Source of the DNA: Gammaproteobacteria bacterium
GTDB lineage: Bacteria > Pseudomonadota > Gammaproteobacteria > Pseudomonadales > Azotimanducaceae
Direction: 5' to 3'
Assembly: GCA_009837725.1 (NCBI GenBank)
Contig: VXSY01000097.1
Span: 7,050 to 45,213, forward strand
DNA: 38,164 bases
Each line of letters begins with the position of its first letter. The stretch's first letter is position 1. The notes beneath the pieces were generated by a model that saw only the letters and a program-made list of their open reading frames with translations, was not told the origin of the DNA and made no database searches. A program made the translations under genes and the position numbers. Shown here piece after piece: positions 12,376-36,938 of this stretch.

Positions 12376-12743
12376 TCTCGCCCTAGCCGCTCTGGGACCG
12401 GATCAAAGCCGCCGGCGTGCCAAGGATGACAACGACCGAGGCGACGAAGCGCCAGCCAACTGCCGCGCACCGCACCAAATCGCTGCACCGCTTCGAGCGC
12501 GTACGCGGAGCAGGTGGGGTGGAAGCGGCAGTGCCCTCCGAAGAAGGGGCTCAGTGCCAGGCGGTAGGCTCGGATCAGGGCGATCAGGCAAAGGGCCAGG
12601 AGGCTGGCGCGCGGTCGTTCGCCGGCCTCGCCGGCGAGAAATCGAGGACGACTTCTCGACTCCCCCGCGAGGGCGGAGTGACAGTCGGGGGCGGACGATG
12701 CATTGGGGGCAACTCCGTGTGTGCCTTGCTCTGCGCTCGTCAC
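12372..12743 (-). CDS. yidD: Membrane protein insertion efficiency factor YidD with repeat-derived N-terminus
   Basis: Small membrane-associated protein aiding YidC-dependent insertion. The core is clear: [34 protein letters not shown] and [15 protein letters not shown], with the three conserved cysteines. The 123-residue frame starts at GTG 12743, which overlaps the rnpA stop as GTGA and follows a G-rich ribosome-binding site. Residues about 20-45 ([19 protein letters not shown]) are encoded by a family A palindromic repeat. No ATG, GTG or TTG occurs in frame between the repeat and the core, so the repeat appears to be translated. The normal protein would lack this 40-45 residue extension. 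Confidence 0.9.
12636..12683 (-). repeat. Family A palindromic repeat inside yidD
   Basis: Plus-strand order of motifs: GAGAAATCGAGGACG, TTCTCGACTCCCCCGCGA, GGGCGGAGTGAC. It matches the intergenic copies at 20273-20326 (reverse orientation) and 25252-25314 over most of its length. A perfect 7-bp hairpin (CGCCGGC/GCCGGCG, 12620-12636) adjoins it. Both reading directions are free of stops in the yidD frame. Confidence 0.8.
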
Positions 12744-30197: not shown

Positions 30198-31120
30198 GCG
30201 ACGGCATTGCCCGAGACCAGTACGCGGTCATCGGCAACCCGGTGGCGCATAGCCTTTCGCCCCGGATTCACGCGATGTTCGCGGCCGAAACCGCCCAGGC
30301 GATTTCCTATGGCACGTTGACCGCCCCGCTGGACGGATTCGCTGCTGCGGCTGGTGAGTTTTTCGACGGCGGCGGCAGGGGCCTTAACGTGACCGTGCCG
30401 TTCAAGCAGGACGCATGGCGGTGGGTGACGAGGCACGACGCGGCCGCAGCGGCGTCTGGCGCGGTGAACACCATCGTCCCGGAGGATGATGCGTTTCGAG
30501 GCTGCAATACGGACGGCATTGGCTTGGTCAGGGATCTCTCGGAAAACCTCGGCTGGACGCTCGCCGGGGCGAGGGTACTCCTGCTCGGTGCCGGCGGAGC
30601 GGCCCGGGGGGTTTTGCCGGCGCTGCGCGAGGCGGGGCCCGCCGAAATCACCCTCGCCAACCGCACCGAGTCGAGAGCCCTCGAAGTTGCCGCCAGGTTC
30701 GACGGGCTACGCGCGTGCTCCCTCGCGGATATGGGAGAAGGCTGGGACATCGTGCTGAACGCCACCTCTGCCAGCATGGGCGGCCCCGCGCTAGGAGCCG
30801 GCACCGTAGAAACCACCGAGACGAAGGAGGGAGCGGGCGACCTCTCGCAGTTTTCGCGTAGCGAAAACCTGCCAGAGCGCGCCGAAGGCGTGCTAGCGCT
30901 CCCCAATACCTGCGTTGCTGGAGCAGCCTGCTACGACCTCTTCTACAACCTGGGCGCCCCGACGCCGTTTTGCGCTTGGGCCGACCAGCACGGCGCGCGC
31001 GTGTGTGCGGACGGCCTCGGCATGCTGATCGAGCAAGCGGCTGAAGCCTTCCGCCTTTGGCGAGGCGTGCCGCCGGCCACCCGCAAGGTGCGCGAAGCCT
31101 TGCGGAAGGCGGACCCGTGA
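30194..31120 (+). CDS. aroE: Shikimate dehydrogenase with repeat-containing insertion
   Basis: NADPH-dependent reduction of 3-dehydroshikimate in aromatic amino-acid synthesis. It has 308 residues against about 272 in E. coli. Substrate motifs are GNPVAHSLSPRIHAMF, LNVTVPFK and NTDGIGLVRDL; the NADP-binding motif is LLGAGGAARGV. Between LNATSASMGG and ACYDLFYNLG there are roughly 33 more residues than in E. coli, including SQFSRSENLPERAEGVL encoded by palindromic DNA (30847-30894). The rest, including CADGLGMLIEQAAEAF, is normal, so the enzyme is probably functional with an extended surface loop. Confidence 0.95.
   Translation: MSDGIARDQYAVIGNPVAHSLSPRIHAMFAAETAQAISYGTLTAPLDGFAAAAGEFFDGGGRGLNVTVPFKQDAWRWVTRHDAAAAASGAVNTIVPEDDAFRGCNTDGIGLVRDLSENLGWTLAGARVLLLGAGGAARGVLPALREAGPAEITLANRTESRALEVAARFDGLRACSLADMGEGWDIVLNATSASMGGPALGAGTVETTETKEGAGDLSQFSRSENLPERAEGVLALPNTCVAGAACYDLFYNLGAPTPFCAWADQHGARVCADGLGMLIEQAAEAFRLWRGVPPATRKVREALRKADP
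30847..30894 (+). repeat. Palindromic element (family C) inside aroE
   Basis: Two adjacent hairpins: GTTTTCGC-GTA-GCGAAAAC (perfect 8-bp arms, extendable by GCAG/CTGC with one bulged base) and AGCGCGCC-GAA-GGCGTGCT (one mismatch). They sit in frame within the extra segment of AroE. Only one copy is seen in this window. Confidence 0.65.
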
Positions 31121-31845
31121 GGGGCTTCCGGCCCGGTTGGGCACTCACCTGTCAGGTGGCGGTTGCCCTTGCCACGGTCATCGCGCTGTCGTTCTGGCAG
31201 TTCTCTAGGGGCCAGGAGAAGGCCGCGTTGGCGGCGGAGCGTGATCAACGCCTTGCGGCGCCGGCGTTGGCTGCCGAAGGGTTCGCGCCCGGCATGCCGG
31301 ACTTCACTCGTCTCGCGCTTGCCGGCCGCTACGACGCCGAGCGGACCTTTTTCGTCATCGATCGCGCCCAGCCGTGGCGCTATCTGGTGGTTACACCGCT
31401 TGTCACCAACCACGGCGTGTTTCTCGCCACTCGTGGGCGCACCGAACGGCCCCGGACGGGAGCCCTCAGCGCGGGGGAGCGCGAGGGGCTTCCCCTCGCC
31501 AGAGGTGCCTTAGGAGCGCCAGAGGTCGAAACCCCGTCGGGATTGATCGCTGTAGCCGGCGTGCTTTGGCCAGAGGAAGGTGCCGCCGACACTTCGAGAT
31601 GGCCCGACGGGTGGCCGAAGGCGGTGAATGGAATGAACGTCTCGGCGATGGCCGAGTTGACCGGCGCCCATCCTCGCGAGGTTCGCTTGGAGGAGCCGTC
31701 GCCGGGGCTGGTGCCGGTCTCCTTGGCCTACGATTTCTCGCCCGGCACGCATTGGAGCTACGCGGTGCAATGGTTGCTCATTGGCGTGGCCATCGTCGCT
31801 GGGTACATCTTCTTCGGGCGGCGCCGCAGTGGTCGCCCGGACTAG
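31117..31845 (+). CDS. SURF1 family cytochrome oxidase assembly protein with repeat insertion
   Basis: SURF1 helps heme a insertion into subunit I of cytochrome c oxidase. GTG 31117 overlaps the aroE stop and gives 242 residues. The first transmembrane segment precedes the family motif ALSFWQFSRGQEKAAL; a periplasmic domain (RLALAGRYD; PWRYLVVTPL) follows, and the second segment is WLLIGVAIVAGYIFF. Residues about 115-131 (GALSAGEREGLPLARGA) are encoded by a family B palindromic repeat in the loop before the conserved EVETPSGLIAVAGVLWP. ctaA, ctaB and SCO1 follow, so this is a heme A/oxidase assembly operon. Confidence 0.9.
   Translation: MRGFRPGWALTCQVAVALATVIALSFWQFSRGQEKAALAAERDQRLAAPALAAEGFAPGMPDFTRLALAGRYDAERTFFVIDRAQPWRYLVVTPLVTNHGVFLATRGRTERPRTGALSAGEREGLPLARGALGAPEVETPSGLIAVAGVLWPEEGAADTSRWPDGWPKAVNGMNVSAMAELTGAHPREVRLEEPSPGLVPVSLAYDFSPGTHWSYAVQWLLIGVAIVAGYIFFGRRRSGRPD
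31459..31508 (+). repeat. Family B palindromic repeat inside SURF1 gene
   Basis: Reads GGAGCCCTCAGCGCGGGG, GAGCGCGAGGGG, CTTCCCCTCGCCAGAGG. It contains the perfect hairpin GCGAGGGG-CTT-CCCCTCGC. The reading frame is GGA GCC CTC, different from both egtB copies. No stop codon is present. Confidence 0.85.
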
Positions 31846-31846
31846 G

Positions 31847-32854
31847 GTGAAGGACCGGTTGTTGACGCTGGTGGTGGCGGGCATCGCCCTTGCCGTCTGC
31901 GTCGTCGTGCTCGGGGCCTATACACGCCTCGTGGATGCGGGACTTGGCTGCCCCGACTGGCCCGGCTGTTATGGCCTGATCGGCGTGCCTGAGACGCCAG
32001 CCGAGATTGCCGCGGCAGAGGCCGCCTTCCCAGATGCGCCGGTAGAGGTGGACAAGGCGTGGCCGGAGATGGTGCATCGCTACTTCGCGACGGCCCTCGG
32101 CGCGCTCATCCTCGGCATACTGGGGTTCGCCGCATGGCGAAAGGACTCCCTTAGGTTGCCAGCCATCCTCACCCTGATGGTGATCGTGCAAGGAGCCTTC
32201 GGCGCCTGGACGGTGACGCTCAAGCTCTGGCCACAGGTGGTGACGGCGCACCTGCTCGGCGGCATGGCGACGCTGGCAACGCTCTGGCTCTATGCATTGC
32301 TGCTCGCTCGCCCCAGGCTGCCGTCCCTGCCGGACATGCGCCGGCTTGCCGCAGCGTCGCTCGGTGTGGTGATCCTGCAGATCGCCCTTGGCGGCTGGGT
32401 GAGCGCGAACTACGCCGGCCTCGCCTGTCCGGACTTCCCGCTCTGTCACGGCGACGTCGTGCCCCCTTTGGACATCGCCCAGGGCTTCGACATCACGCAA
32501 GATGTCGGGCCGAACTATCTCGGCGGCCAACTCGACAGCGAGGCGCGCATCGCAATCCAGATCGCCCACCGGCTCGGCGCGGTGCTCGTGCTGGGGGTGG
32601 TGGGGCTGTTGTGCGTGCGGCTGCATCGTGCTGGACAGCGGCTGCTCGCCGGGGCCGTTGCCGCGGCCCTTGGCCTGCAATGGGTCTTGGGTGTCGCCAA
32701 CGTGCTGGCGGCGCTGCCGCTGCCGCTGGCGGTGTTGCACAATGCCTTCGCCGGCGCATTGCTGCTCGCCGTCGTTACAGTAAACTTCGCCGCTTTCGGG
32801 CGGCTCCCGAGACGGCGTTCGGTGCCTGCCGCCGGCGCGGCGTCCGTCCATTGA
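31847..32854 (+). CDS. ctaA: Heme A synthase (CtaA/COX15)
   Basis: Membrane enzyme that oxidises the C8 methyl of heme O to the formyl group of heme A. It has 335 residues and about eight membrane helices. Heme-ligand histidines occur in the expected four places: MVHRYFATALG, VTAHLLGG, IQIAHRLGAV and VLHNAFAGALL. The signature DAGLGCPDWPGCYG is at the N-terminus, and the second half repeats it as YAGLACPDFPLCHG. GTG 31847 immediately follows the SURF1 stop; GTG 31829 is an alternative inside SURF1. The next gene makes its substrate, heme O. Confidence 0.95.
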   Translation: MKDRLLTLVVAGIALAVCVVVLGAYTRLVDAGLGCPDWPGCYGLIGVPETPAEIAAAEAAFPDAPVEVDKAWPEMVHRYFATALGALILGILGFAAWRKDSLRLPAILTLMVIVQGAFGAWTVTLKLWPQVVTAHLLGGMATLATLWLYALLLARPRLPSLPDMRRLAAASLGVVILQIALGGWVSANYAGLACPDFPLCHGDVVPPLDIAQGFDITQDVGPNYLGGQLDSEARIAIQIAHRLGAVLVLGVVGLLCVRLHRAGQRLLAGAVAAALGLQWVLGVANVLAALPLPLAVLHNAFAGALLLAVVTVNFAAFGRLPRRRSVPAAGAASVH

Positions 32855-32921
32855 AACAACAGCCACCGGCGGCGTCGGGCTCGCCGGCGGCGTGCGTGCT
32901 TTCCATGAGAGAGGGACATCC

Positions 32922-33803
32922 TTGAGCGAAGCGTTGCTGACCGAAGCGCGTGGCACTTGGCGCGACTATCTGGAGCTCACCAAACCGCGGGTCGTGCTGC
33001 TCATGCTCATGTGCGCAGCGGTGGGGATGCTGCTCGCCGCCGGCGATGCGCTGCCGTGGCGGGCACTCTTGTTCGGCTTGCCCGGCATCGCCCTGATGGC
33101 GGCGTCGGCGGCGGCCGTGAACCACATTGCGGATGCCCAGATCGACGCCCGCATGGCGCGCACGCGCAACCGTCCTGTGGCCACGGGGCGCATCGGTCCC
33201 GCACGCGGAGTGGTCTTTGCCGGCGCCCTTGGGTTGGCTGGATTCACGATCCTCACGACGCTCGTCAATCCGCTCACCGCCTGGCTGAACCTGGCGTCGT
33301 GGGTTGGCTATGGCCTCGTGTACACGTTCTATCTCAAGCGCGCGACGCCGCAGAACATCGTCATCGGCGGGCTCTTCGGCGCCGCGCCGCCGCTGTTCGG
33401 CTGGACTGCGGTCACGGGCAGCATCGAGCCCGGCGGTCTCGTGCTGCTCGCCATCATCTTCATCTGGACGCCGCCGCACTTCTGGGCCTTGGCGCTGGAC
33501 CGCATCGACGACTATCGCGATGCGGACATTCCGATGCTGCCGGTGACCCATGGCGAGGCGCACACCAGGTGGCAGGTGTTCTTCTACACGCTGGCGCTGG
33601 TGGCGGTGAGCGTCGCGCCGTGGGCCATCGGCATGAGCGGCGTCGTCTATCTCGTCGGCGCGCTTGCCCTCGGGGCCGTCTTCATCGGCTACACCGTGGC
33701 GCTGTTGCGCCGCACGCCGACCGCGCCGATGGCGACCTTCCGCTACTCCATCGTTTATTTGCTGCTGCTGTTCGTGGCGTTGCTGATGGACCACTACCTT
33801 TGA
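32922..33803 (+). CDS. ctaB: Protoheme IX farnesyltransferase (CtaB/COX10)
   Basis: UbiA-family membrane prenyltransferase that turns heme B into heme O. TTG 32922 is preferred because AGAGGGA lies six bases upstream; GTG 32892 is an alternative. It has 293 residues with about nine helices. The first Asp-rich motif is NHIADAQIDARMARTRNRP, the second is DRIDDYRDADIPMLPV, and the signature LTKPRVV lies near the N-terminus. It sits between ctaA and SCO1, consistent with aa3- or related heme A-containing oxidase assembly. The oxidase subunits are not in the window. Confidence 0.96.
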   Translation: MSEALLTEARGTWRDYLELTKPRVVLLMLMCAAVGMLLAAGDALPWRALLFGLPGIALMAASAAAVNHIADAQIDARMARTRNRPVATGRIGPARGVVFAGALGLAGFTILTTLVNPLTAWLNLASWVGYGLVYTFYLKRATPQNIVIGGLFGAAPPLFGWTAVTGSIEPGGLVLLAIIFIWTPPHFWALALDRIDDYRDADIPMLPVTHGEAHTRWQVFFYTLALVAVSVAPWAIGMSGVVYLVGALALGAVFIGYTVALLRRTPTAPMATFRYSIVYLLLLFVALLMDHYL

Positions 33804-33935
33804 TGGAACAGGGGCAGAGGGGGCGTAACGACCGAAGGTGGATGCTCCACCAGCGGACGGCGTGGCTGGGCTCGAGCGAGCGTACGCGAGGTGCTGCGAC
33901 GGGTCTGGGACGCTCCGCAGGCCGCTGGGGGTAAC

Positions 33936-34550
33936 GTGAAGTTCGTTGCCATCGGTGCGCTGGTGGTTGGGGTCGTCGGCCTCGGCGTGACCGTGGCGCA
34001 GCTCTCCGGCGAGCCGACACTGTCTGGCGAAGAGCTACGTGCACTTGGCTATCGTGCCTATGACGTGCCACGGCCGATTGCAGCCTTCGAACTCGTCGAT
34101 GATGACGGCGGCACCTTCGACCAGGGACGTCTTAGCGGCCGGTGGAGCTTGGTGTTCTTCGGCTATGCGAACTGCCCGGACATCTGCCCGGTGACGCTGT
34201 CCGTGTTGGCGGAGGCGGAGCGGCTCATCGGCGAGGGCAGGTTCCAGACGGTGCTTGTGAGCGTCGATCCGGAGCGCGACACACCGGAACGCCTCGACAG
34301 CTATGTCGGCACCTTCTCGCCTCGCTTCGTTGCTGCGACGGGCTCGCCCCATTCGGTTCAGCAGTTCGCTGGAAGCCTAGGTGCGGCGTTTCGCAAGGCA
34401 CCGAGCGCCGGCTCGGAGCTTGAGTATCTGGTCGATCACACCGGCTTCATCGCCGTGGTCGATCGCGAGGCGCGCTTGGCTGGCTACATCCGCTCGCCGT
34501 TCGAGGCAGTCAACATCGCCCGGGTGGTGCGGGCGCTGGATCGGGCCTGA
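33936..34550 (+). CDS. SCO1/SenC family copper chaperone
   Basis: Membrane-anchored thioredoxin-like protein that delivers copper to the CuA site of cytochrome oxidase. GTG 33936 with GGGGG upstream gives 204 residues. An N-terminal anchor (about residues 4-22) is followed by the copper-binding motif FGYANCPDICPVTL (CxxxC) and the distal His in LVDHTGFIAVVD, so all three ligands are present. The 132-bp gap after ctaB has no gene and no repeat that I recognise. Its stop shares one base with the egtB start (TGATG), so egtB may be co-translated. Confidence 0.93.
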   Translation: MKFVAIGALVVGVVGLGVTVAQLSGEPTLSGEELRALGYRAYDVPRPIAAFELVDDDGGTFDQGRLSGRWSLVFFGYANCPDICPVTLSVLAEAERLIGEGRFQTVLVSVDPERDTPERLDSYVGTFSPRFVAATGSPHSVQQFAGSLGAAFRKAPSAGSELEYLVDHTGFIAVVDREARLAGYIRSPFEAVNIARVVRALDRA

Positions 34551-35956
34551 TGGCATTCATCTCGCCAATGGCAGCGAAGGCTACGCGGGCGGAGCCCTCA
34601 GCGCGGGGGAACGCGAGGGGCCTCCTCTCGCGAGAGGAGGTCTATGGTCGCATTCGTCGACGCAGCGAGGAGCTGTGCGAACCGCTCGAGATCGAGGACT
34701 ACGGCGTGCAGCCCATCGTCGATGCCAGTCCGCCGAAGTGGCATCTGGCGCACACGACCTGGTTCTTCGAGACTTTTCTGCTGGTGCCGTTCCGCAAGGG
34801 CTACCGGCCCTTCCACCCCTCTTTTGAGTATCTCTTCAACTCCTACTACAATGGCGTCGGGGAACCGTTTCCGCGGCCGAGTCGCGGCAACCTGTCGCGA
34901 CCGACGCTGGCCGAGGTGCTGGCCTATCGCCGCCATGTGGATGTGGCGATGGCGCCTCTGCTCGTCGCCGAAGACGTCGAGGTGCAGGCGCGCCTAGAGC
35001 TCGGCCTCAATCACGAGCAACAGCATCAGGAGCTTCTCGTCACGGATTTCAAGGTCACGCTCGGCAGCAATCCGCTGAAGCCCGCCTATCGGGAACGGAA
35101 TGGCGAGACCCTGCGCACGGCGCTGCCGCTCGCGTTTCGACATTTTGACGGTGGCTTGACCGAGCAGGGCATGGATGCCGGCGGCGCATTTTGCTTCGAC
35201 AACGAGAGCCCGGAACATCGCGTGTGGCTGGAGCCGTTTGCGCTCGCGAACCGGGCCGTGACGAATGGCGAGTATCAGGAGTTCATCGAAGACGGCGGCT
35301 ATGCGCAGCCGGCGCTTTGGCTGTCGGAGGGCTGGGCCTGGGTGTGCCGGCAAGGAATCTACGCGCCAATGTACTGGCGCGCCACGGACGACGGCTGGCA
35401 GGAGTACCGACTGGACGGCGAAGGCGCCGTGGCCCCCCACCTGCCGGTGACGCATGTGAGCTTCTACGAGGCCGAGGCGTATGCCACCTGGGCCGGCGCC
35501 CGATTGCCTACCGAGGCGGAGTGGGAGCATGTGGCGCGAGGGGCCTCCCCTCGCGAGAGGAGCCCTCAGCGTGGGAGAGCGCGAGGGGCCTCCCCTCGAA
35601 ACAGCAGCCCGGACAGTCACGAGCCGTCCGCCGCCGTGTTGGCCGGCAACTTCGCCGACAGCGGCCGGCTGCATCCGGCACCGGCCATTCCCGGCACCGA
35701 CGGCGAAGCGGCGCCAATGCAGCTCTTCGGCGACTGTTGGGAGTGGACGTCGAGCGCCTATCGCCCCTATCCAGGATTCACGCCGCTCCCCGGCACCCTT
35801 GGCGAATACAACGGCAAGTTCATGTCCGGCCAACAGGTGCTGCGCGGCGGCTCCTGCGCGACGCCCGAGGGCCACGTTCGCGCCACCTACCGCAATTTCT
35901 TCTACCCTCCTGACCGCTGGCAGTTCACGGGCATCCGGCTGGCGAAGGACGCTTGA
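34550..35956 (+). CDS. egtB: EgtB-like iron-dependent sulfoxide synthase with two repeat insertions
   Basis: Non-heme iron enzyme of the EgtB type, which in ergothioneine synthesis joins the thiol substrate to trimethylhistidine. It has 468 residues. The DinB-like domain carries the iron ligands in KWHLAHTTWFFE and LNHEQQHQELL; the C-terminal FGE-sulfatase domain has VTNGEYQEFIEDGGY, LPTEAEWEHVA, WEWTSSAYRPYPGF and VLRGGSCATPEGH. Two family B repeats are translated: residues about 15-30 near the N-terminus and a compound copy at about 329-350 just after WEHVA. Without them the protein would be a normal length. No EgtD methyltransferase gene is adjacent, so pathway assignment (ergothioneine versus another sulfur histidine) is inferred from family only. 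Confidence 0.88.
   Translation: MAFISPMAAKATRAEPSARGNARGLLSREEVYGRIRRRSEELCEPLEIEDYGVQPIVDASPPKWHLAHTTWFFETFLLVPFRKGYRPFHPSFEYLFNSYYNGVGEPFPRPSRGNLSRPTLAEVLAYRRHVDVAMAPLLVAEDVEVQARLELGLNHEQQHQELLVTDFKVTLGSNPLKPAYRERNGETLRTALPLAFRHFDGGLTEQGMDAGGAFCFDNESPEHRVWLEPFALANRAVTNGEYQEFIEDGGYAQPALWLSEGWAWVCRQGIYAPMYWRATDDGWQEYRLDGEGAVAPHLPVTHVSFYEAEAYATWAGARLPTEAEWEHVARGASPRERSPQRGRARGASPRNSSPDSHEPSAAVLAGNFADSGRLHPAPAIPGTDGEAAPMQLFGDCWEWTSSAYRPYPGFTPLPGTLGEYNGKFMSGQQVLRGGSCATPEGHVRATYRNFFYPPDRWQFTGIRLAKDA
34591..34640 (+). repeat. Family B palindromic repeat at the egtB 5' end
   Basis: Reads GGAGCCCTCAGCGCGGGG, GAACGCGAGGGG, then a 20-bp perfect palindrome at 34621-34640 (CCTCCTCTCG/CGAGAGGAGG). The reading frame is GAG CCC TCA, one base shifted from the SURF1 copy. 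No in-frame start codon exists between the repeat and the conserved EgtB core. Confidence 0.85.
35534..35598 (+). repeat. Compound family B repeat within the egtB FGE domain
   Basis: A half unit (GCGCGAGGGGCCTCCCCTCG plus CGAGAGG) is followed by a nearly full unit (GGAGCCCTCAGCGTGGGAGA, GCGCGAGGGGCCTCCCCTCG). The hairpin GCGAGGGG-CCT-CCCCTCGC is perfect in the first half unit; the second has the last base changed. The reading frame is AGC CCT CAG, the third frame. It encodes an Arg/Ser/Gly-rich loop. Confidence 0.88.
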
Positions 35957-35962
35957 GGCGCT

Positions 35963-36081
35963 TACCCCGGATTACGCATGAATGCGCGTAGCGAGGGCGA
36001 CGAGACGCCGCTGTGGCTGGACGCGCACGCGTGCCGGGGGGCACGGGGCGTCGGAGGGCGTTCCATGGGCAATCCGGGCTA
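35963..36081. mobile_element. Putative MITE-like element between egtB and panC
   Basis: A 119-bp segment is bounded by 11-bp terminal inverted repeats, TACCCCGGATT (35963-35973) and AATCCGGGCTA (36071-36081), with one mismatch; both ends begin with TA. Inside are a hairpin near ACGCATGAATGCG and a perfect CGTGCC-GGGG-GGCACG. It has no coding capacity. It fills almost the whole gap and ends five bases before the panC ATG. Confidence 0.6.
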
Positions 36082-36086
36082 GTCAC

Positions 36087-36938
36087 ATGGAGGTCGTCGC
36101 CGAGATACGAGCGTTGCGCGAGCGGCGCGAGGCCATGCGCGGCAGCGTGGGGCTGGTACCGACGATGGGCAATCTGCACGAAGGCCACCTAGCGTTGGTG
36201 CACGAGGCGCGGCAGGAATGTGCCAATGTCGTCGCGACCATTTTCGTCAACCCTACGCAATTTGCGCCGAACGAAGATTTCGCCAGCTATCCGCGCACGC
36301 TTGCGGAGGATCTGGAGCGGCTCGAGAAGGCCGGCGTGGATGTGGTGTTCGCGCCGGACACGGCCGAGATGTATCCGAGGGGACGTGAGCGGTTGACGAC
36401 GGTTTCGGTTCCTGCCCTTGCCGATACCCTTTGCGGCGCCGCGCGACCGGGGCACTTCGATGGCGTTGCGACGGTGGTGGCGAAACTCTTGCACCTCGCG
36501 GCGCCGCATCGGGCGTTCTTTGGCGAAAAGGACTGGCAGCAGCTTGCGATCATCCAGGCGATGGTGCGAGACCTCGACATGGCGACACAAATCGTCGGCG
36601 TGCCCACCGTGCGGGCCGGCGACGGGCTGGCGCTGTCGAGTCGCAATCAGTATCTGACACCGGATGAACGCGAGCTCGCGCCGCTGATCTTCCGCAAGCT
36701 GTGCGACGTGCGCGATGCGGTTCATCGTGGCGAGCGCAATTTTGCGAGGCTTGCGGCTGACGCCTCGCAGGACTTGGCCACGGCCGGCTTCCACGTGGAT
36801 TATGTGGCAGTGCGCGATGCCGAACGCCTCGTGACGCCGGACAGTCGTACGCCGTCGCTGCGCATCCTCGCCGCCGCGCGGCTGGGCCGCGCCCGTTTGA
36901 TCGACAACATCGGCGCAGACGTTGCCGTCCCCTCCTGA
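36087..36938 (+). CDS. panC: Pantothenate synthetase
   Basis: ATP-dependent condensation of pantoate and beta-alanine to pantothenate, the coenzyme A precursor. ATG 36087 gives 283 residues, exactly the E. coli length. A longer frame to 35982 runs through the MITE-like element and is rejected. Motifs are VPTMGNLHEGHLALV (HIGH-type), FVNPTQFAPNEDF, FFGEKDWQQL and ALSSRNQYL. No ribosome-binding site precedes the ATG because the repeat ends there. panB is not adjacent; pgi follows and overlaps it. Confidence 0.96.
   Translation: MEVVAEIRALRERREAMRGSVGLVPTMGNLHEGHLALVHEARQECANVVATIFVNPTQFAPNEDFASYPRTLAEDLERLEKAGVDVVFAPDTAEMYPRGRERLTTVSVPALADTLCGAARPGHFDGVATVVAKLLHLAAPHRAFFGEKDWQQLAIIQAMVRDLDMATQIVGVPTVRAGDGLALSSRNQYLTPDERELAPLIFRKLCDVRDAVHRGERNFARLAADASQDLATAGFHVDYVAVRDAERLVTPDSRTPSLRILAAARLGRARLIDNIGADVAVPS

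Follow-up and report, generated by a model that had tools for sequence, protein, structure and literature searches.

How does the same short piece of DNA come to lie within coding sequences in three different forward frames? The question is raised by a stretch of 38,164 nucleotides from a gammaproteobacterial genome of the family Azotimanducaceae (contig VXSY01000097.1; the whole stretch is called the window, and the genome G000), in which a palindromic repeat, named here family B, occurs three times within 4.2 kb, once in a SURF1-family gene and twice in an egtB-like gene. Comparison of genomes leads us to the answer, to which we give a probability of about 0.85, that family B would be a short, non-autonomous, mobile and frame-neutral repeat that leaves most of its host genes working.

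The first copy (31460..31509, plus strand) lies within the SURF1-family gene (31057..31845, plus strand, start codon uncertain), where it inserts 45 bp that close relatives lack. Its translation in the ALS frame is a peptide of 15 residues, ALSAGEREGLPLARG (the GALSAGEREG peptide), and the Pfam SURF1 match runs across the insert. The other two are in the egtB-like gene (34550..35956, plus strand; DinB_2 and FGE-sulfatase domains). Copy 2 (34592..34641, plus strand) is close to the N-terminus of EgtB, beginning 14 codons past an ATG overlapping the stop codon of the gene before it; it is read in the EPSA frame as EPSARGNARG and is also found in two other genomes of the genus, G005 and G010. Copy 3 (35534..35609, plus strand) is inside the FGE-sulfatase domain and is read in the SPQ frame as RSPQRGRARG; it comprises about 1.6 tandem units, a partial one at 35534-35559 followed, 45 bp apart, by a full one at 35560-35609, in a stretch that is shorter or missing in relatives. 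Three copies, all coding, in three forward frames and with three peptides, are what the original prediction from this DNA had described, and all of this was borne out. Among the matches listed, the named record nearest to the EgtB protein is the metagenome-assembled genome SB0662_bin_58 (63% identity), which we take to be part of a sponge-associated set.

The repeat had been estimated at about 50 bp; it is indeed present, but the unit is 45 nt long, from GAGCC up to just before the next GAGCC, so that GAGCC stands at either end. Its consensus is GAGCC-YTCAGC-N2-GGGGGAGC-GCGAGGGG-CYT-CCCCTCGC-NNGAG, of which GCGAGGGG-CYT-CCCCTCGC is the GC-rich palindromic core. A second subtype, found in the PurD gene of G000 and in many copies of the related genome G008, has 2 bases fewer before the palindrome and 2 more in and after it, and thus also totals 45 nt. 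Copies 1, 2 and 3 match the 45-base core at 43/45, 43/45 and 40/45 positions, whereas the best match in 200 simulated order-1 Markov windows was 31/45 (mean maximum 26.8); the three copies are far above chance.

Sites with and without the repeat

At the sites of the window's copies, related species lack the segments. The SURF1 genes of G005 and G010 (loci L183 and L184) are 45 bp shorter and have an empty site, and the other 12 SURF1 orthologues of the genus that were aligned are likewise without the segment. The reverse situation is seen in egtB, where the sequence CGGGAAC (35090..35096, plus strand) is an empty site in G000, filled by an in-frame 45-bp copy in G005 and G010; G007 has an array of its own. 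The solved EgtB structure 6qki aligns on either side of residues 331-363 and the segment is absent from it, and 80 named egtB loci of other lineages contain no family B DNA. On these sequence comparisons, the segments are insertions rather than ancestral parts of the proteins.

The same picture emerged from other sites. When the flanks of 27 sites of G000 were joined and searched in G005 and G010, at least one aligned counterpart was obtained for 23 of them. Some counterparts are empty (e.g. C260, C23 and C147 in G010 and C272b in both genomes); elsewhere the differences amount to whole units or are less regular. Comparison of G008 with G007 was attempted for 20 sites, of which 19 could be aligned (all except L363); 11 are clean single-copy empty sites, with a net gain of +45 (5 sites), +42 (5 sites) or +39 (1 site). 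Not counted among these 11 were L374 (14), L348 (39) and two sites of L380 (69 and 36), none of which was clean, the arrays at L352 (+90), L353 (+87) and L383 (+219), and L381, for which the protein alignment gives in-frame gaps totalling 34 residues. From 0 to 6 target bases were lost at insertion, and visual inspection of the filled/empty alignments (egtB, SURF1, G005/G010 and G007/G008) revealed no target-site duplication.

That the window's copies belong to a larger family was confirmed at the level of the genome. BLAST gave 63 matches in G000 at E<=10 and 53 at E<=1.3e-4, many of them spaced by 45 bp. Of the two outcomes named beforehand as refuting, shared segments in orthologues of unrelated lineages and a lack of further genomic copies, neither was observed. 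With a covariance model based on 19 copies, units were counted in 58 genomes (E<=0.001). There are 51 units in G000, and the 15 remaining genomes of the genus have 67, 40, 105, 128, 41, 32, 22, 15, 13, 9, 6, 5, 5, 5 and 0, i.e. family B is detected in 15 of 16 (5 to 128 units), in genomes of 3.1-5.2 Mb. Outside the genus, there were 49 units in G021, which belongs to another genus of the same family, and one weak match in G028, while the remaining 40 of the 58 genomes had zero units. With BLAST alone, the matches listed came from all 16 genomes of the genus (G015 only at E 0.0017), from G021 and, weakly, from G018. In 274 sampled genomes of the class, searched with stricter filters at E<=1e-4, only G000 itself was retrieved (0 of 273 others). 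No family B match was found in phage and plasmid collections (blastn), nor in viral contigs searched with one exact pattern, and Rfam gave no match at E<=1 across 31000-36200.

Host genes, reading frames and array spacing

After exclusion of the weak matches L058-L061 (E 0.25 to 3), 36 family B places were examined in G000. By Pfam matches, orthologue alignments and our own reading of gene starts, 20 of them were judged coding and 11 outside genes; the last 5, contig ends or weak matches, were put in neither class. The coding places use the EPSA frame 9 times, the SPQ frame 6 times, the ALS frame 4 times and the reverse strand once. They are in SURF1, EgtB (2), a protein kinase, the LpxD tail, a BatD-type protein, a VWA protein, glycosyltransferase (2), a DUF7662 protein, alpha/beta hydrolase (2), a solute-binding protein, CoA-transferase (2), an aldo/keto reductase, PhyH, PurD, IleS and HsdR. 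Several intergenic copies adjoin gene starts and ends, and the copies near the E2 acyltransferase, lysA-like, rnd and exbD/tonB genes, at first considered as coding or nearly so, were counted outside genes, being by our reading upstream of likely starts or intergenic. The 40 stretches taken from G008 contain 44 arrays, with Lon, RlmN, PlsX and RodZ among the coding hosts; 16 arrays were accepted as coding (Pfam matches of the host open reading frame, mostly with G007 alignments in addition), 12 in the EPSA and 4 in the SPQ frame. Left out of this count for weaker support were L354 (ALS, no Pfam match) and L363 (EPSA), as well as L348, L359, L374 and L384 (opposite strand). Inserts fall within or between domains in PurD, IleS, HsdR, Lon, RlmN, RodZ, PAPS reductase and DUF58 proteins; in Lon of G008, five units add 75 residues between the lid and protease domains.

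Two observations on particular copies may be added. The end of L049, one of the five places put in neither class, and the start of L033 appear to belong to one protein kinase gene, and both contigs stop inside the repeat; copies of family B are probably points at which the assembly breaks. At L360 (1932-2190), six units with a 43-bp period lie upstream of a probable start codon, and the open frame through them yields all three peptides in turn.

Can it be said that the repeat is translated? The three forward frames had been described as stop-free, and they are open in the copies, but this is unremarkable at 66% G+C, and a CTAGAG variant shuts the SPQ frame. Of 20,000 random 45-mers with this G+C content, 41% were open in 5 or 6 frames, so that open frames alone are weak evidence of translation. 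One reverse frame is closed by TGA in the four consensus units tested; some copies oppose the strand of their gene, with the reverse frame used being open. A better indication comes from the arrays. In 13 coding arrays (12 measured by anchors, and the egtB array), every spacing is 45 bp (27/27). At L353, the anchors give 45, and a single 46 in the profile search is an edge effect. The coding BatD array (L037, spacing 45) was kept outside the test. Among 8 non-coding arrays, 5 have spacings not divisible by 3 (35, 43, 44 or 46). This bias (Fisher p=0.003) suggests selection for frame, and hence translation, although the coding and non-coding labels are our own and were assigned after the arrays had been seen, which is the first of several points that speak against our explanation. 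About 10 arrays were assigned to neither class, including L368 and L375, which show spacings of 47 and 43; L375 is at the 3' end of an open reading frame. For the GT2, VWA, kinase, LpxD and PhyH hosts, Pfam backs one side of the insert only. At 20 empty sites, the targets are no more similar to GAGCC than chance would make them (p=0.13), and a requirement for a GAGCC-like target, which the junctions had suggested, was given up on this control. In a covariation set of 112 matches from 62 source sequences, representing 102 distinct copies, compensatory changes were found in 0 of 8 palindrome pairs; as no pair is altered on both sides, pairing is unproven by covariation. Single-strand folding was modestly better than that of shuffled sequences (z -0.9 to -2.3, four sequences). 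Finally, the mobilising gene was not found, and 8 of the 19 matches to Y1_Tnp, taken with their flanks, are without a family B copy.

With these points in mind, our account of family B is as follows. Comparison of genomes shows that the repeat enters new sites, genic as well as intergenic, in both orientations and in more than one frame, with no target duplication in the pairs seen, and that array copy number shifts mostly by 45-bp steps. The unit being a whole number of codons (15) and stops being rare in the frame used, most hosts could tolerate it and keep working, with the insert forming a short loop or tail. Selection would purge only the harmful copies, and, among the arrays classed, gains or losses other than of whole codons would persist only outside genes. 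Dispersed copies would be made by a trans-acting enzyme, the first suspect being a Y1-type transposase of the RAYT (REP-associated tyrosine transposase) kind, while arrays may grow and shrink via recombination or slippage between GAGCC-bounded units, as unit-step changes suggest. The peptides would be by-products, and no frame would be 'intended'. A bolder version, which we put forward tentatively and at somewhat less than an even chance, is that the 45-nt length and the scarcity of stops were themselves selected, as a means for a selfish element moved by an enzyme in trans to be invisible to translation in almost any frame. For it one may note that two subtypes with internal indels are both 45 nt long and that nesting of a second palindrome, family C, gives 96 nt (32 codons). 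If it were true, coding DNA would become the main habitat of this repeat.

Alternative origins

One alternative is that family B belongs with the REP-type repeats and is mobilised by a RAYT of the host, its intragenic copies being merely tolerated. We regard this as possible, yet somewhat short of an even chance. A Y1_Tnp domain was found once in G000 and in 10 of the 16 genomes of the genus at E<=0.001 (9 above the curated cut-off); family B unit numbers are higher in the genomes with Y1_Tnp (Mann-Whitney p=0.008, a test that ignores phylogeny and assembly quality), and a short palindrome without visible target duplication is what this route could produce. However, copies are present in G001, G006, G012, G013 and G014, where Y1_Tnp was not detected, and neither a GTAG nor a CGTC tag is found in the consensus (19 copies). 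A linkage by location was looked for and not seen in the eight Y1_Tnp loci mentioned above (L212-L219), which are devoid of family B; one has a 16-nt match resembling family C. What remains is the rough correlation with copy number. As for what these loci do contain, the Y1_Tnp open frame of L215 (G000:C96) and L216 starts with a series of segments resembling GRPALHRGRKPA, which may be the cognate repeat of that transposase, and at L212 and L213 (G004 and G011), repeats read as GTGQARPLR/VGATLVVARA surround the Y1_Tnp loci and apparently represent another family.

Another possibility is that spread occurs mostly through recombination or template switching at short homologies (GAGCC, GC-rich palindromes), no transposase being involved. 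Insertions that add 39, 42 or 45 bp net, remove 0-6 bases of the target and leave no visible duplication would be compatible with this, as would the whole-unit variation that is common in arrays. But targets resemble GAGCC no more than expected by chance, and homology alone would hardly scatter copies over unrelated genes in either direction, so that we consider it unlikely as the main route. Much less probable still is a selected function, either as a useful peptide linker or as an RNA or DNA hairpin acting on mRNA stability or termination. The strong conservation of the core over the 102 distinct copies and the position of intergenic copies near gene starts and ends might be taken in its favour; against it, the same DNA gives unrelated peptides depending on the frame, one of them from the reverse strand, orthologues of the same gene in sister species lack the repeat and unrelated proteins carry it. 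Selection for a hairpin was rejected in view of the missing compensatory changes and the modest folding scores. Lastly, the view that these are conserved ancestral segments lost elsewhere, or assembly artefacts, is largely refuted: several contigs do end within copies, as they would at repeats, but filled sites differ among sister species, the outgroups aligned are empty and copies also exist in G013 and G014, genomes that consist of a single contig.

Neighbouring repeats and known systems

Family B is not the only repeat in these genomes. Family C is a second palindrome of about 51 nt, AGAAGTTCCGC..GCGGAACTTCC plus GCGCCCGCAAGGGCGCGC, found alone or nested in family B, in which case composite units recur every 96 bp; family C was noted at L041:3038-3090, L047:6114-6260, L035, L036, L037, L048 and G005:C3:7268-7656. 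Another palindrome, TTCTCGACTCCCCCGCGAGGG..GGAGTGAC, possibly intergenic, occurs in the window at 12653, 20302 (minus strand) and 25283, and G010 has a similar copy downstream of its egtB gene. Two stretches of the right flanks of L043 and L044 (query 348-451 and 581-625) have matches at numerous positions of the G005 and G010 genomes, which means that further interspersed repeats exist.

In the literature searched, from which the primary papers on Rickettsia palindromic elements (RPE) were absent, there was no description of family B or of a three-frame palindromic element. The novelty claimed for gammaproteobacteria nevertheless needs qualifying, since intragenic palindromes have been described there (PMC3733652, PMC2759123), including those of Thioalkalivibrio uvrA, Xanthomonas recB and Stenotrophomonas (PMC3733652). 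The GTAG- or CGTC-tagged REPs (PMC3733652) share with family B their short palindromes, their occurrence in dimers or groups and some wholly intragenic copies, in gammaproteobacteria too; they are mostly intergenic and tagged, whereas family B is without tags and genic at 20 of 31 assigned places. The enterobacterial RU-1/ERIC, RU-2 and RU-3 elements (PMC2759123) are also small and mobile, with in-frame fusions and a frame-shifted reading of RU-1, but they are longer (103-168 bp), with multiple intergenic copies and with fusions reported for 24 annotated loci. The palindromic coding repeats called PARCEL (PMC2996958) likewise form tandem coding units with dyad symmetry; they are a sequence-variable domain, chiefly of membrane proteins, while family B is conserved as DNA and occurs in unrelated proteins and in different frames. 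The QMITE1/2 elements of Coxiella (PMC5896051) are gammaproteobacterial miniature inverted-repeat transposable elements (MITEs) at times in frame in open reading frames, of 150-400 bp and with direct repeats. Family B differs from MITEs in general, as its ends are direct GAGCC repeats with the palindrome internal and no terminal inverted repeats, and its net gain of 39-45 bp at clean single-copy sites comes without the target-site duplication of MITEs.

The closest parallel would be with RPE, as the original prediction had proposed: it holds for behaviour, i.e. in-frame insertion into housekeeping genes, while membership is not established. RPE-1 to RPE-10 and the Wolbachia palindromic elements are, according to papers on intragenic elements of Rickettsia (PMC3767692, PMC2229807, PMC10969869, PMC2635572), palindromic, dispersed in coding and non-coding DNA, and in frame in unrelated housekeeping genes. 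They measure about 100-150 bp, against 45 bp for family B (the 96-bp composites with family C aside), and yield a conserved peptide from one reading, against frame counts of 9/6/4/1 in G000. Family B further differs by its tandem 45-bp arrays and by its presence in gammaproteobacterial genomes of 3.1-5.2 Mb. Coding palindromic repeats are best known from the small intracellular Rickettsia genomes, and family B would represent a shorter, multi-frame, tandem-forming version of them within a gammaproteobacterial genus. It could help in the search for the enzyme that moves such elements, and the filled and empty pairs of sister species make the tolerance of proteins to random 15-residue insertions measurable, in terms of rate, position in the fold and frame.

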